NCBI GenBank assembly: GCA_017621885.1
Contig: JAGASD010000058.1
Location: forward strand, 1 to 36,670
Length of the DNA: 36,670 bases
Source of the DNA: Clostridia bacterium
Lineage (GTDB): Bacteria; Bacillota; Clostridia; Oscillospirales; Acutalibacteraceae
Reading direction: 5' to 3'
Of the stretch, positions 20,135 through 36,670 are shown piece by piece (within the stretch, counting starts at the first letter, position 1; every line of letters begins with the position of its first letter). The notes under the pieces are model-generated. The model had not been told where the DNA came from. It was given only the letters and a program-made list of their open reading frames with translations, and did no database searches. A program made the position numbers and the translations under genes.

Positions 20135-21712
20135 ATGGATATTAAAAATTACATTGCTGAAGGTAAAGCCGTTCTCGGTATTGAGTTCGGCTCAACAAGA
20201 ATCAAGGGCGTTCTTATTGATGATGAGGGCGGTGTTCTTGCAGTCGGCGGCTACGACTGGGAAAACAGCCTCGTAAACGGCATCTGGACCTATGGCGAGG
20301 ATGAATTTTTTGCAGGACTTAAAGGCTGCTATGCATCACTTAAAAAGGATGTTAAGGATCGCTACGGCATAACTCTTACAAACCTTAAATATATCGGTAT
20401 CAGCGGTATGATGCACGGCTACCTTGCTTTCAATAAAGACGGAAAGCTCCTTGCACCCTTCCGCACCTGGCGTAATACCTGCGCAGGTGAAGCCGCAAAC
20501 AAGCTGACAGAGGAATTTCAGTTCAATATTCCCGACCGTTGGAGCATAGCGCACCTTTATCAGTTGATTCTTGAGGATGCAGAGCATATAAAGGATGTTG
20601 CTTATTTCACAACTCTTGCAGGATATATTCACACTCTTCTTACAGGTGAAAAGGTTCTGGGTATCGGTGAAGCATCAGGTATGTTCCCTATGGAGGGCAA
20701 CAACTACAGCGAAGCTATGCTTGATAAATTTGATAACCTTGTAGAGGGTAAGGGATATCCCTGGAAAATCCGCGAAATTCTCCCCACAGTTCTTGTTGCA
20801 GGTGAAAATGCAGGTAAACTTACTGAAGAAGGCGCAAAGCTTCTTGACTCTGACGGCGACCTTGAAGCAGGTATTCCCATGTGTCCTCCCGAGGGTGACG
20901 CAGGCACTGGTATGGTTGCAACAAACAGCGTAAGAGTAAGAACGGGTAATGTTTCTGCAGGTACGTCTGTTTTCGCAATGATTGTTCTTGAAAAGCTCCT
21001 TTCAAAGCTTTACCGTGAAATTGATATGGTAACAACTCCCGACGGTGCACCCGTTGCAATGGTGCATTGCAACAACTGTACGTCCGATATCAATGCTTGG
21101 ACATATCTTTTCAAAGAGGTCCTTGACCTTATGGGTGCAGAGGTTTCTTTGGGCGACCTTTTCACAGCACTCTTCAAAAAATCTGCCGAAGCAGACAAAG
21201 ATTGCGGTAATCTTATTTCATACAACTATTTCTCAGGCGAATTCCTTACAGGCTTTGAAACAGGTAAACCCCTCTTTATAAGAGAGCCCGACAGCAAATT
21301 CTCACTTGCAAACTTTATGAGAGTTCAGCTTTTCACAGCCTTTGGCGGTATAAAAATCGGTATGGATATTCTTGATAAGGAAAATGTTGCCATTGATAAA
21401 ATTCTCGGTCACGGCGGTTTCTTCAAAACTCCCGTTATCGGACAGAGCGTGCTTGCAGCGGCAATGAATGCCCCCGTTTCCGTTATGGAAACAGCAGGTG
21501 AGGGCGGTGCATGGGGCGTTGCGGTTCTTGCAGCCTTTGCGGCAAATAAAGAAGAGGGAGAAATTCTTCCCGATTACCTTGATAACAAGATTTTTGCAAC
21601 ACAGAAAATGACAACTCTCGACCCCGAAAAAGAAATTGTAGAAAGCTTTAATCAGTTTATGGAAAACTATAAAAAAGGTCTCGCGGTTGAAAGAGCAGCG
21701 GTTGAGATGTAA
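20135..21712 (+). CDS. FGGY family carbohydrate kinase
   Basis: ATP-dependent sugar or polyol kinase, 525 residues, with two actin-like domains. Visible motifs: [16 protein letters not shown] (phosphate 1), [13 protein letters not shown], an AGTSVFAM stretch within [15 protein letters not shown] (phosphate 2), and [20 protein letters not shown] (adenosine region). It resembles the xylulokinase/ribulokinase group, but the substrate cannot be assigned. ATG preceded by AAAGGAG, 24 bases after the glycosylase gene, and ended by a strong terminator, so it is the last gene of the yqeG-M24-UDG run. Its codon use (many CTT, GGT, CTC) resembles that of the highly expressed transketolase cluster. A functional link to that pathway is possible but unproven. 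Confidence 0.87.
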
Positions 21713-21714
21713 GA

Positions 21715-21742
21715 AAAATCCCCTCGGATGAGGGGATTTTTT
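21715..21742 (+). terminator. Rho-independent terminator of the kinase gene
   Basis: Perfect stem AAAATCCCCTC ggat GAGGGGATTTT followed by TT, just after the stop codon. Confidence 0.9.
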
Positions 21743-21743
21743 A

Positions 21744-22411
21744 AATGAGAAATTAGGAATTAGGAATGAGGAATTTCGGAACGCTTCGCGTTGATTATAG
21801 ATTAAGTTGCAGTGAAGCGAAGCCTATCCTCCTTGCGAGCTTCAGCTCGGAGGGAGGGGGACCGCTCTTAAAACAAATTTCTCGTTAAATTCACTGTAAT
21901 GCGTGACACAAATCACCTTTACAATAAAATTATATCGGAGTGGTGGAAGGTACAATCACATTTTTCTTCAGCAAAATATATCGAATAAATCTTTAGATTT
22001 ATTTATCGAATTACGTAGCAATATATCGAGTTTATCGTGAGATGAACATATCGACAGTCGATATATGCTAACGCATTCGATATGTGCGTTGCACTCGATA
22101 TATTTTTGTTGCACAAAAATTCGATATATTCCGCTTTGCGGAATGAGAATTGTACCTTCCACCATTCCGCTCGAACTTAATTTTATAAATCAGTTTATCA
22201 CTCGTGGTAAATATATTAAAAGTAACAATTCTATACAAGAATGGTCCCCCTCCCTCCCGCAAGCGGCAAGGAGGATAGGCTTCGCACCACCGAAAATTAA
22301 TTTATAAATGCAACGCAGTTCCGAAACTTGCCATTTGCAACTTGCAACTTATATATAATCGGCGCTTTGCGCCCATTAATTCCTAATTCCTCACTCCTAA
22401 TTCCTAATTCA
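21744..22411. repeat. Complete large palindromic element
   Basis: About 670 bases, no gene. The tails carry GGAATTAGGAATGAGGAATT-type repeats at the left and the inverse (CCTAATTCCTCACTCCTAAT) at the right. Next come GCGAAGCCTATCC...GGGAGGGGGACC (21817-21863) and its inverse GGTCCCCCTCCC...GGATAGGCTTCGC (22243-22285), each with its own tiny hairpin (GAGC ttca GCTC; CCGC aag CGG). Inside lie a 21-base inverted repeat and the hairpin array listed separately. Partial relatives occur at 1-256, 1504-1990, 6055-6427 and 36483-36670. Confidence 0.85.
21936..22169. repeat. Hairpin array with ATATCGA/TCGATAT linkers
   Basis: Bounded by CGGAGTGGTGGAAGGTACAAT (21936-21956) and its inverse (22149-22169, 20 of 21 match). 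Left linkers ATATCGA are at 21978, 22003 (as TTATCGA), 22023 and 22048; right linkers TCGATAT are at 22058, 22077, 22095 and 22121; CAG at 22055-22057 is the axis. Inserts are hairpins: TTTTTC ttca GCAAAA, ATAAATC ttta GATTTAT, ATTAC gta GCAAT and GTTTATC gtga GATGAAC on the left; ATGC taac GCAT, GTGC gtt GCAC, ATTTTTGT tgc ACAAAAAT and ATTCCGC ttt GCGGAAT on the right. Left and right linkers are mutually complementary, so the whole can fold into stacked four-way junctions. Confidence 0.9.
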
Positions 22412-22448
22412 AAAAAGCTCCCACTTGCAAAGCAAATGAGAGCTTTTT
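22412..22448 (-). terminator. Rho-independent terminator of the oxidoreductase operon
   Basis: Stem AAAAAGCTC..GAGCTTTTT with an inner TTGC aaa GCAA stem; T run on the minus strand directly after the stop codon. Confidence 0.8.
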
Positions 22449-22449
22449 G

Positions 22450-23727
22450 TTATATGTACATAGTCTGTCCGTTATTTTCTCTTGATTTGTCTGCAAGGAA
22501 AACGACTCTGTGACCTGCAATGGAATTTTCAATTGATGTGCAGGAAACAGAAGGATTTTCGCCGCGGATGAACTTAATAAAGTCTTCTGTAAGTGCCGTG
22601 TCGGCACCGCCGTGACCGTCGTCGGGAGTGTTTGTTAAATCAACAACACGCTCGTCAAAATATTTACCGGGGTCGGGATTGATTGTTTTGATTTTCACAA
22701 ACTTGCTTTCAAGCTCGCCGTAAATTTCACCCTTTGTACCGATAATGCGGATAGTTCTTAAAGATTGTGCGGCACCGCCGGCAAGGTTGTGCGTGCCTGT
22801 TGCACCGCTTTTAAAGTTAACAAGAACGCTCTGATGGTCAACCACATCGTTATCACATTTGAACATACATCTGCCGAATTCACTTTTTTCAAGAATAGCG
22901 CGTCGCTGCTCTTCTGTGGGATTTTCTATGCCCTCTAAATCCTTCCAGACGTAAACCTCCCAGCTGTCCGGGTGGTCAAGGTACATACGCTTTGCACCAA
23001 ATTCACAATAATCAACTCTGGGGCAGTCAACAAGACAACGTGTGCCTGAATTTTCGGGAGCGTTTTCGGGCTTGAATTGGAATTTAGAGCCAACGGAAGA
23101 AACGCTGACGGGCTCGTCATCACCCATAAGCCACATCATAAGGTCAAGGTCGTGACAGCATTTCGCAAGAAGCATAGACGTGTGACATTTTTGGCTGTTT
23201 GCCCATTTGCCGCGGACGTAAGACGTTGAAAGGTGGTGATAGCTTACGTCTTCAACCATCTGAATATTAATAATTTTGCCGATTTCACCGCTGATAATGC
23301 TGTTTTTGATGGTGGAATATATGGGGTTATAACGGAGCACGTGGCAAATCATAACCTTATTTTTGTTGCGATTAACAACCTCAATAAGTCTGTTCATTTC
23401 CTCCTCGTTCACCGCAAAGGGCTTTTCAAGAAGCATATCATAGCCATTTTCAAGCAGGGGGATTGACGTTTCAACGTGGATTTCATCCATTGTTCCGTTA
23501 ATCACTACGTCTGCAAATTTTGGTGCCTGTGCAAGCGTAACCGAATCAATAAAGCACATGCTTTCGGGGATGTTGAAAAGCTCGCGCACGTGGTTTCTGC
23601 GGTAATCGTCAGGCTCTGCCACACCCACAATCTGAAGCTCGTCGGGGTGTGCCTTGGAATATTCTGCATAAGCCATAGCGCGATGTCCTGCGCCGAGAAT
23701 AATTGCTGTAACCGGTTTCTTTGTCAT
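22450..23727 (-). CDS. Gfo/Idh/MocA family oxidoreductase
   Basis: NAD(P)-dependent sugar or cyclitol dehydrogenase-like protein, 425 residues. The Rossmann domain opens with TAIILGAGHRAMAYAEY (dinucleotide loop GAGHR) and carries the family EKP motif in LLEKPFAVNEEE. The C-terminal part contains NFKSGATGTHNLAGG, which supports the MocA-type alpha/beta fold. A cysteine-rich stretch in the middle (RCLVDCPRVDYCEFGAKRMY) is shared by a subgroup and may bind a metal. The start was taken as ATG at 23727 (MTKKPVTAII); a GTG at 23736 overlaps the upstream stop as GTGA and is an equally coupled alternative. Last gene of the DUF896-GNAT operon. Substrate unknown. Confidence 0.87.
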   Translation of the reverse strand: MTKKPVTAIILGAGHRAMAYAEYSKAHPDELQIVGVAEPDDYRRNHVRELFNIPESMCFIDSVTLAQAPKFADVVINGTMDEIHVETSIPLLENGYDMLLEKPFAVNEEEMNRLIEVVNRNKNKVMICHVLRYNPIYSTIKNSIISGEIGKIINIQMVEDVSYHHLSTSYVRGKWANSQKCHTSMLLAKCCHDLDLMMWLMGDDEPVSVSSVGSKFQFKPENAPENSGTRCLVDCPRVDYCEFGAKRMYLDHPDSWEVYVWKDLEGIENPTEEQRRAILEKSEFGRCMFKCDNDVVDHQSVLVNFKSGATGTHNLAGGAAQSLRTIRIIGTKGEIYGELESKFVKIKTINPDPGKYFDERVVDLTNTPDDGHGGADTALTEDFIKFIRGENPSVSCTSIENSIAGHRVVFLADKSRENNGQTMYI

Positions 23728-36482: not shown

Positions 36483-36670
36483 ATGATTTGCGAAGCAAAG
36501 CAAATCATGGAGCATAGAAATATTTCACGTTTTGCTTCAGCAAAATATATCGAATAAATCATTAGATTTATATATCGAATTACGAAGTAATATATCGAGT
36601 TTATCGTAAGATAAACATATCGACAGTCGATATATGCTAACGCATTCGATATGTGCGTCGCACTCGATAT
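36483..36670. repeat. Hairpin array, second copy, cut by window end
   Basis: Begins after the isomerase stop with ATGATTTGC gaagcaaa GCAAATCAT (36483-36508). From 36530 it matches the array at 21961 almost base for base: TTTTGC ttca GCAAAA, then linkers ATATCGA at 36547, 36572, 36592 and 36617, CAG, then TCGATAT at 36627, 36646 and 36664. Inserts ATAAATC atta GATTTAT, ATTAC gaa GTAAT, GTTTATC gtaa GATAAAC, ATGC taac GCAT and GTGC gtc GCAC are all perfectly paired. The window stops at the last base of a linker. Confidence 0.9.

Follow-up and report, generated by a model that had tools for sequence, protein, structure and literature searches.

Intervening sequences (IVS) of 23S rRNA genes, as described for Coxiella and Leptospira, carry an ORF of the PF05635/S23p family with heptameric tandem repeats directly before it, and are regarded as selfish elements (PMC4990558). 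In Coxiella, three tandem heptameric repeats and a degenerate one precede the S23p ORF, their number varying between strains; that account argues that the Coxiella protein is probably not expressed, reports a homologue as a pentameric toroid, and stated in 2016 that S23/IVS proteins had no known function (PMC4990558). Short, dispersed intergenic palindromes that flank a dedicated gene and also occur as orphan copies are known from REP/BIME elements and from REPtrons with their RAYT, as that literature is presented in PMC3733652.

Here, we analyse a hairpin array on contig JAGASD010000058.1 of assembly GCA_017621885.1, a Clostridia bacterium of the Acutalibacteraceae; the whole stretch of 36,670 nt is referred to as the window. 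Unlike the 23S IVS, the window element is intergenic and without a PF05635 ORF, and its heptamers alternate with hairpins. It also differs from REP elements and REPtrons, in that its hairpin sequences are mutually unrelated, its constant part is a 7-nt linker, and the protein concerned is a four-helix bundle.

CRISPR arrays consist of repeats of ~23-50 nt with unique, non-palindromic spacers. The trp RNA-binding attenuation protein (TRAP) is a ring that reads short repeats with unconstrained spacers on one strand; it differs from the present case in having another fold, 11 repeats of 3 nt, and spacers that are short and unstructured. The bAvd protein of diversity-generating retroelements is a pentameric four-helix-bundle barrel acting with nucleic acid and a reverse transcriptase, but no template or variable repeat was seen at the arrays described here. 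MITEs and BOX elements are, like the window element, small, dispersed, intergenic, gene-less and inverted. The window element, in contrast, ends in arrays whose heptamer is fixed while the hairpins vary, and not in a single conserved inverted sequence; the array-linked protein is no known transposase. In open-licence papers, no description was found of hairpin-spaced heptamers or of the matching of such words to proteins.

Anatomy and dispersal of the window array

The core of the array (21960-22144) consists of eight differing hairpins joined by 7-nt linkers, which read ATATCGA to the left and TCGATAT to the right of a central CAG (Table 1). An earlier note on this DNA had described eight hairpins with a heptamer that flips at the CAG, within 21936-22169, and re-reading of the sequence bears this out. 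The linker is always 7 nt long, with TTATCGA as the single deviant; in copy L003 the centre carries a paired change, ATATCTACAGTAGATAT. The note had also set the array apart from CRISPR, correctly so: the repeat has 7 nt, the spacers are palindromic, and the best CRISPR model scored 19.9 bits, short of its gathering score, 37.

Table 1. Features of the array and its surroundings (window positions).
Feature	Position	Strand	Remark
Composite insert, approximate extent	21719..22410	.	missing at the orthologous site in G175, G311 and G314
Outer tandem heptamers, AATTAGG-AATTAGG-AATGAGG-AATT, period 7	21751..21775	+	sequence
21-base inverted repeat, 5′ arm	21936..21956	+	from a different dispersed palindromic repeat
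Left half-array	21960..22047	+	sequence; aligned with 11 other copies or part-copies; stem covariation
Left half-array hairpins	H1 21960-21977; H2 21985-22002; H3 22010-22022; H4 22030-22047		
Left linkers	ATATCGA 21978-21984; TTATCGA 22003-22009; ATATCGA 22023-22029		
Centre, ATATCGA-CAG-TCGATAT	22048..22064	.	linker orientation flips; CAG at 22055-22057
Right half-array	22065..22144	-	sequence and stem covariation
Right half-array hairpins	H5 22065-22076; H6 22084-22094; H7 22102-22120; H8 22128-22144		
Right linkers, TCGATAT	22077-22083; 22095-22101; 22121-22127		
Terminal GAGA after the last hairpin	22145..22148	+	by eye, without statistics
21-base inverted repeat, 3′ arm	22149..22169	-	from a different dispersed palindromic repeat
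Outer tandem heptamers, inverted, CCTAATT-CCTCACT-CCTAATT-CCTAATT	22377..22410	-	sequence
Second array copy, cut by the contig end, 94% identical	36525..36670	+	genome search

The array lies between two convergent protein-coding frames, and the one ORF of at least 80 aa in the insert (22065-22307) starts within the array itself. A GAGA/AAGA-like motif was also seen by eye, without statistics, 3′ of the final hairpin in relatives, among them L391, L082, L088 and L012. In L149, L079, L172, L143 and others, again by eye, the 5′ arm of the first hairpin (AAATCC...) recurs complemented after the last one (GGATTTATATC); it appears to change along with the first hairpin and permits local or long-range pairing.

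The 21-base inverted repeat and outer arms that the earlier note had made part of the fold are present, but belong to a separate dispersed repeat. The inverted repeat (core GTGGTGGAAGGTAC) forms a palindrome family of its own in the genome, seen as extra matches that cover only ~213-234 of the query; together with the outer arms it accompanies some array copies and is absent beside the array in L006, L007, L008 and L012. Because the AATTAGG word of the outer flanks also flanks four-helix-bundle genes in L300 and L316, two elements of the same class may be nested at this site.

The ten best matches in the genome range from 141 to 234 nt in length and from 86 to 100% in identity. Six are near-complete and four (L007-L010) are cut at contig ends, the latter possibly representing two to four further copies. 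A diverged full copy (L012) is 74% identical, and other copies, L013 and L017 among them, are partial. The three-linker pattern has 37 matches in the genome, partly overlapping, and its reversed control has none.

Comparison with congeners revealed sites at which the insert is missing. At the window locus both flanks lie side by side in 4 of 21 congeners: in G175, G311 and G314 nothing but a terminator-sized gap separates the two genes, and G313 carries a ~100-nt word-repeat element at this place. The array-only copy L012 stands between pyrE and pyrF, just 5′ of the pyrE start; nine congeners were searched for this site and eight judged, G306 being left out. The flank gap is 0 nt in G057, 4 in G175, 15 in G314 and 17 in G311, none of them overlapping, and -4 in G313, which has a 4-nt overlap. 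Since other repeats of 129-191 nt (L440, L442 and L443) occupy the same gap in G251, G309 and G316, this intercistronic site looks like an insertion hot spot. For the L006 site, 3 of 10 loci could be scored, with gaps of 13, 60 and 79 nt. By eye, several array copies stand after terminator-like hairpins.

Copies at many loci, together with empty orthologous sites in congeners, show the window array to be a mobile, dispersed, gene-less, MITE-like element, a possibility that the earlier note had raised in proposing a mobile non-autonomous element. Dispersed copies and empty sites without a gene, as in MITEs, are found here.

Within the family of the window's genome, the three-linker pattern occurs in 15 of 300 genomes, its own included, and the reversed control in 3 of 300; at least two of the 15 (G035 and G080) lack palindromes and resemble chance hits. 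The named genome collection gave at least 119 matching stretches, so that the number of carriers is a lower bound. Among the matches listed, 111 loci have a three-linker run, of which 61 are palindromic, all titled Clostridia, Oscillospiraceae, Ruminococcaceae, Ruminococcus or Christensenella. The other 50 listed loci are non-palindromic, come from many phyla and are mostly put down to chance, but some belong to Clostridia and may be decayed arrays. The hairpins vary between genera, whereas the heptamer is constant. In IMG/VR, six loci out of 81 stretches passed the palindrome filter. Palindromic TCGATAT arrays were observed there on L221, L226, L229, L269, L282 and L292, and the elements may therefore ride on phages, or these may be host stretches binned as viral.

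Folding, covariation and hairpin loops

The region 21900-22210, outer arms included, gives folding z scores of -8.75 as RNA and -7.90 as DNA, with 0 of 100 shuffles folding as well in either case. The earlier note had predicted a ladder of four-way junctions, formed by the pairing of left with right linkers. The linkers are able to pair in this way (27 of 28 positions), and the ladder gains ~21 kcal/mol over hairpins alone as RNA. It can form, but is not the minimum-energy fold, with -79.5 against -95.2 kcal/mol as RNA and -52.7 against -56.9 as DNA; for the array core only, the values are -42.7 against -58.4 (RNA) and -32.3 against -37.7 kcal/mol (DNA).

Covariation was assessed over 12 aligned copies and part-copies, the window array included. 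In the hairpin stems 96.4% of cells are paired, and nine pairs and 15 cells have changed on both sides, which 0 of 500 shuffles equalled; among the five measures, the number of further pair types in the stems (17) showed no excess over shuffles (308 of 500 as high). The hairpins are held by selection. Across the same 12 rows the linkers are conserved and 99.3% paired, with a single pair, that in the central hairpin, changed on both sides, a result as high in 49 of 500 shuffles.

An opposed array within 300 nt, counted by exact linkers only, was found for 43 of 66 distinct TCGATAT arrays lying away from locus ends and was lacking for 23; 18 of these 23 have zero exact opposed linkers and still keep the linker word. 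The linker is thus kept even where a ladder is unlikely. With linker covariation that does not exceed its control, a fold above the energy minimum and 23 of 66 arrays unopposed, the ladder does not hold up as a selected structure, and probably arises as a side effect of two half-arrays facing each other. That a cruciform ladder is the target of a junction-binding protein would agree with the pairable linkers and the opposed arrays, but the same energies, the single covarying linker pair and the unopposed arrays speak against it, and the words follow the protein clade instead (see below); we consider it very unlikely.

Partial copies such as L013 and L017 could be taken to indicate an incidental origin, in which slippage during replication multiplied decaying palindromes, the heptamer and the gene being carried along. 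The earlier note had asked for a covariation check and a search for a dispersed family. Both were run, and with compensated stems and an existing family the decay reading was not upheld. Compensated stem changes, strand-specific loops, a heptamer constant over genera and the co-segregation of word and protein make it the least credible of the explanations considered here.

The loops are strand-specific. Among 282 distinct hairpins read on the ATATCGA strand there are 113 triloops, 66 of them GNA and none TNC, and 110 tetraloops, of which 66 are GNNA and none TNNC; the loop-closing pair is C-G in 205 of the 282. In single-stranded DNA, GNA and GNNA loops with a C-G closing pair are known for their high stability. 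The RNA GNRA loop family has a purine at position 3, whereas GNRA (31) and GNYA (35) tetraloops in the arrays show no such preference, a hint that speaks mildly against RNA GNRA loops. An Rfam search of 21700-22460 gave 19 matches up to E 10, none at the gathering score, and searches of L391, L456 and L116 gave 0 matches.

The adjoining PF05635 gene and its heptamer word

Directly beside several arrays lie ORFs for a four-helix-bundle protein (PF05635, E 2.5e-22; TIGR02436, E 1.6e-25), whose nearest solved structure by sequence is PDB 2rld, a single entry with five chains. Eight distinct TCGATAT elements adjoin such a gene (L071, L116, L121, L124, L127, L173, L210 and L183; L084 and L093 were dropped as the same place as L071). 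The array ends ~15-24 nt from the gene start in seven of the eight, and lies 3′ of the gene in L183. A PF05635 gene stands beside the array at 10 of 137 palindromic loci, duplicates included, compared with 1 of 158 non-palindromic loci. Most TCGATAT arrays have no PF05635 gene nearby, which counts against the reading we favour below.

Some elements carry arrays on both sides. L391, taken from the Pfam search list of G174, a genome chosen as an array carrier, has the layout ATATCGA x5 - gene - TCGATAT x4, hairpin arrays standing on either side; L366 and L387 likewise have inverted arrays 3′ of the gene as well. In L458 and L460, half-array B is directly repeated on both sides of array A and the gene, as if insertion had duplicated ~100 nt. 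Simple inverted ends do not explain these direct repeats, a further point against our reading.

Most gene loci derive from 36 genomes: that of the window, 11 selected because they carry TCGATAT arrays, and 24 relatives. A PF05635 gene was found in all 11 array carriers tested (2-9 copies each) and also in 16 of the 24 other relatives, so that the presence of the gene does not by itself identify a TCGATAT carrier, another point against our reading. The window's genome has ten PF05635 matches (seven uninterrupted, one near-full with stops and two fragments), none of them labelled ATATCGA, and the genome search gave no match on the window's contig (C48). As the assembly is ~94% complete and shows no gene of the ATATCGA group, the cognate gene may be lost, unassembled or not needed; its absence likewise weighs against our reading. 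Congener G313 has a gene of this group, 74% identical to the L116 protein, with a <<<<CAG>>>> array immediately 3′ that matches the window array at 82.5% identity over 103 nt. A truncated array copy lies immediately 5′; judged by sequence, this gene and array together are the likely parent of the window array within the genus.

The association extends to other words. Arrays of any 6-mer with palindromic spacers flank 48 of 121 gene hits (118 loci), compared with 2 of 148 controls, and 39 of 112 after removal of nine loci found via the pattern; in 46 of the 48 the array is upstream of the gene. Read by eye in gene sense, the words are ATATCGA, ATATCGC, ATATCAC, ATATCAT, ACATCAC, ACATCAT, ACTTCAC, ACTTCAT, GCTTCAT, ATTTCAC, ATTTCAT, ATTACAT and ATATAAC.

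Word labels were compared with protein trees in two ways. By-eye labels, fixed before the tree and with GCTTCAT pooled with ACTTCAT, required 23 word changes over 113 proteins, where shuffled labels averaged 44.0 and never gave so few in 200 trials, and the nine ATATCGA proteins form one clade (SH-aLRT 96); L302, L319, L327 and L393, with arrays visible by eye, were scored 'none' in this tree. A counting rule over 13 words, which were drawn from the same loci and are not independent of them, labelled 77 of 136 proteins and required 25 changes against 73.4 on shuffling (0 of 200 as low), with one clade each for ATATCGA (10 rows, SH-aLRT 94) and ATATCGC (13 rows, 98). The trees are quick ones of 112 columns in which near-copies help clustering; both left out proteins below 85 aa, and the counting-rule tree also left out identical ones.

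The nearest relative at 50-90% identity shares the word in 63 of 76 cases, against a chance expectation of 0.12, and the words in the 13 mismatches are one or two letters apart. Two to four words co-occur in 17 genomes, so host descent does not explain the match between word and protein. The HMM scan covered the loci fetched by then, and would have revealed any TCGATAT array adjoined by a protein from a different clade; the only further PF05635 protein in it was that of L179, whose locus has no palindromic TCGATAT array. In these sequence comparisons, the labels and trees together show that the heptamer word co-segregates with the protein clade. Two points weigh against our reading: some words are scattered (changes/rows: ATTTCAT 6/14, ATATCAC 4/7, ACTTCAC 3/3, GCTTCAT 2/2), and 59 of the 136 proteins received no label under the counting rule.

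The position of the arrays raises the question of regulation at the RNA level, in which the array would be a 5′-UTR element bound in RNA by the four-helix-bundle protein, in the manner of TRAP, and spread by an unrelated process. Control of the gene itself and of its neighbours would suit the short distance to the start codon in seven of eight TCGATAT elements, the upstream array in 46 of 48 any-word hits, the strand-specific loops and the place of L012 just 5′ of pyrE. It suits less well the copies after terminator-like hairpins, the window copy between convergent genes and the inverted arrays 3′ of the gene in L391, L366 and L387; nor do the loops resemble the RNA GNRA family, or the window, L391, L456 and L116 match Rfam at the gathering score. 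We regard this explanation as unlikely, if the most serious of the competing ones.

The layout of a gene flanked by its own palindromes is also that of a REPtron (PMC3733652). A constant short word next to each hairpin, together with strand-specific loops, could likewise suit a REP-like element mobilised by a tyrosine transposase of the Y1/HUH kind (RAYT or IS200/IS605 type), which recognises hairpin plus guide. A Y1 match was found in 9 of 13 genomes searched, but in neither the window's genome nor G174, G251 and G260, all of them array carriers (4 of the 13). None of the 16 Y1 places is beside one of the arrays listed, the nearest being 2.5 kb away (G225:C16), and the gene that actually adjoins the arrays is PF05635. 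There is no GTAG or CGTC tag at the hairpin foot, where the constant neighbour is ATATCGA/TCGATAT. Both this missing tag and the failure to find Y1 in the window's genome agree with the earlier note, which had distinguished the array from a REP. We think such an origin even less probable than the junction target. A RAYT-moved element was dropped as a candidate, Y1 giving no match in the window's genome and not lying beside any of the arrays listed.

Period 7, rRNA insertions and a proposed recognition unit

Gene loci without a labelled hairpin array have tandem words in their flanks. At a threshold of 19 of 21, lag-7 repeats occur in 28 of 135 flanks (22 of 68 loci), and at lags 5, 6 and 8-12 in none of the same flanks; control stretches gave 9 of 1307 at lag 7 and one at lag 5, and hairpin-array loci 0 of 89 flanks at lag 7. 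Near and far flanks of the same loci differ at lag 7, with 41 of 190 against 3 of 182 at a threshold of 18 of 21 (the near flanks also giving one at lag 8 and three at lag 11) and 24 against 1 at a threshold of 19. Inverted word pairs on both sides of the gene occur in 32 of 111 cases (control 3 of 601), and same-strand pairs in 12 of 111 (control 12 of 601). Heptamer repeats before the ORF, as in the 23S IVS, are thus found in the related gene-bearing elements, as linkers or as period-7 words.

Across the phylum, PF05635 matched in 25 of 119 genomes, the window's own included. Scanning of 28 loci (56 flanks) at a threshold of 18 gave lag 7 in 13 flanks and lag 11 in three flanks, at two loci. 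The flanks of two four-helix-bundle genes, L498 and L500, have period 11, not 7, and count against our reading. Eight PF05635 loci of other Bacillota, picked by eye and some of them for 23S-like flanks, were submitted to Rfam, which placed the genes of L495, L499, L504 and L507 inside 23S rRNA genes; two of these four loci, L495 and L507, pass the lag-7 threshold. For L486 and L490, Rfam gave nothing. In L501, the PF05635 gene (~1501-1818) is enclosed by an RNase P RNA match of full length (1229-2003), which spans 775 nt for a model of 367 positions and resembles a 23S intervening sequence. A tmRNA was matched near a PF05635 gene in L514 (956-1303, Rfam), and another was seen, by eye only, after a PF05635 gene at L297 in the window's own genome.

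The heptamer is constant in length, specific to the protein clade, tied to a ring protein and either in tandem or spaced by hairpins, and the simplest reading is therefore one heptamer per subunit. We consider it probable, at about 0.6, that the window array is a gene-less copy of a mobile element with a PF05635 gene, and that the heptamer is the recognition unit of the ring protein. Each linker would be recognised, as a single strand, by one subunit of a ring-shaped S23/PF05635 protein. In basal members the heptamers would follow head to tail with a period of exactly 7; in the derived form, hairpin spacers would fold out at their base and amount to a spacer of nearly zero length, so that the heptamers stay in register. 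The protein would bind the arrays of its element, which in gene-bearing members lie just upstream of its own start codon, and would take part in mobilising the element, gene-less copies being bound or mobilised in trans. We infer direct binding, ring stoichiometry, a single-stranded substrate and a role in mobility.

Further observations stand against this recognition by a ring protein. The PF05635 family is described as having no known catalytic activity, and the Coxiella member is probably not expressed, at least in the account of PMC4990558. Copies per array fit a pentamer only loosely: with runs below three uncounted, 133 hairpin arrays have three linkers in 38, four in 87, five in seven and six in one, and tandem-word arrays have 4-5 copies in 26 of 33.

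More tentatively, and with somewhat less than even confidence, we suggest a class of mobile elements without a recognisable transposase. Its pentameric four-helix-bundle ring would recognise heptamers on a single strand, each subunit taking one, with hairpins as spacers that loop out and so keep the heptamers in register, and words particular to each clade would avoid cross-talk between families that share a genome; the insertions in 23S and RNase P RNA would belong to the same class. We take the window element to be an intergenic, hairpin-spaced variant of the S23-protein elements.

The most interesting part of these results is the general rule by which a heptamer word is matched to a protein clade. 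It offers a candidate ligand for the S23/IVS proteins, a 7-nt word with clade-specific letters. If the proposed reading is true, it would define a hairpin-spaced recognition code and account for several repeat families in gut Clostridia, and 23S insertions, simple period-7 repeats and hairpin arrays would be joined in one class of selfish elements.
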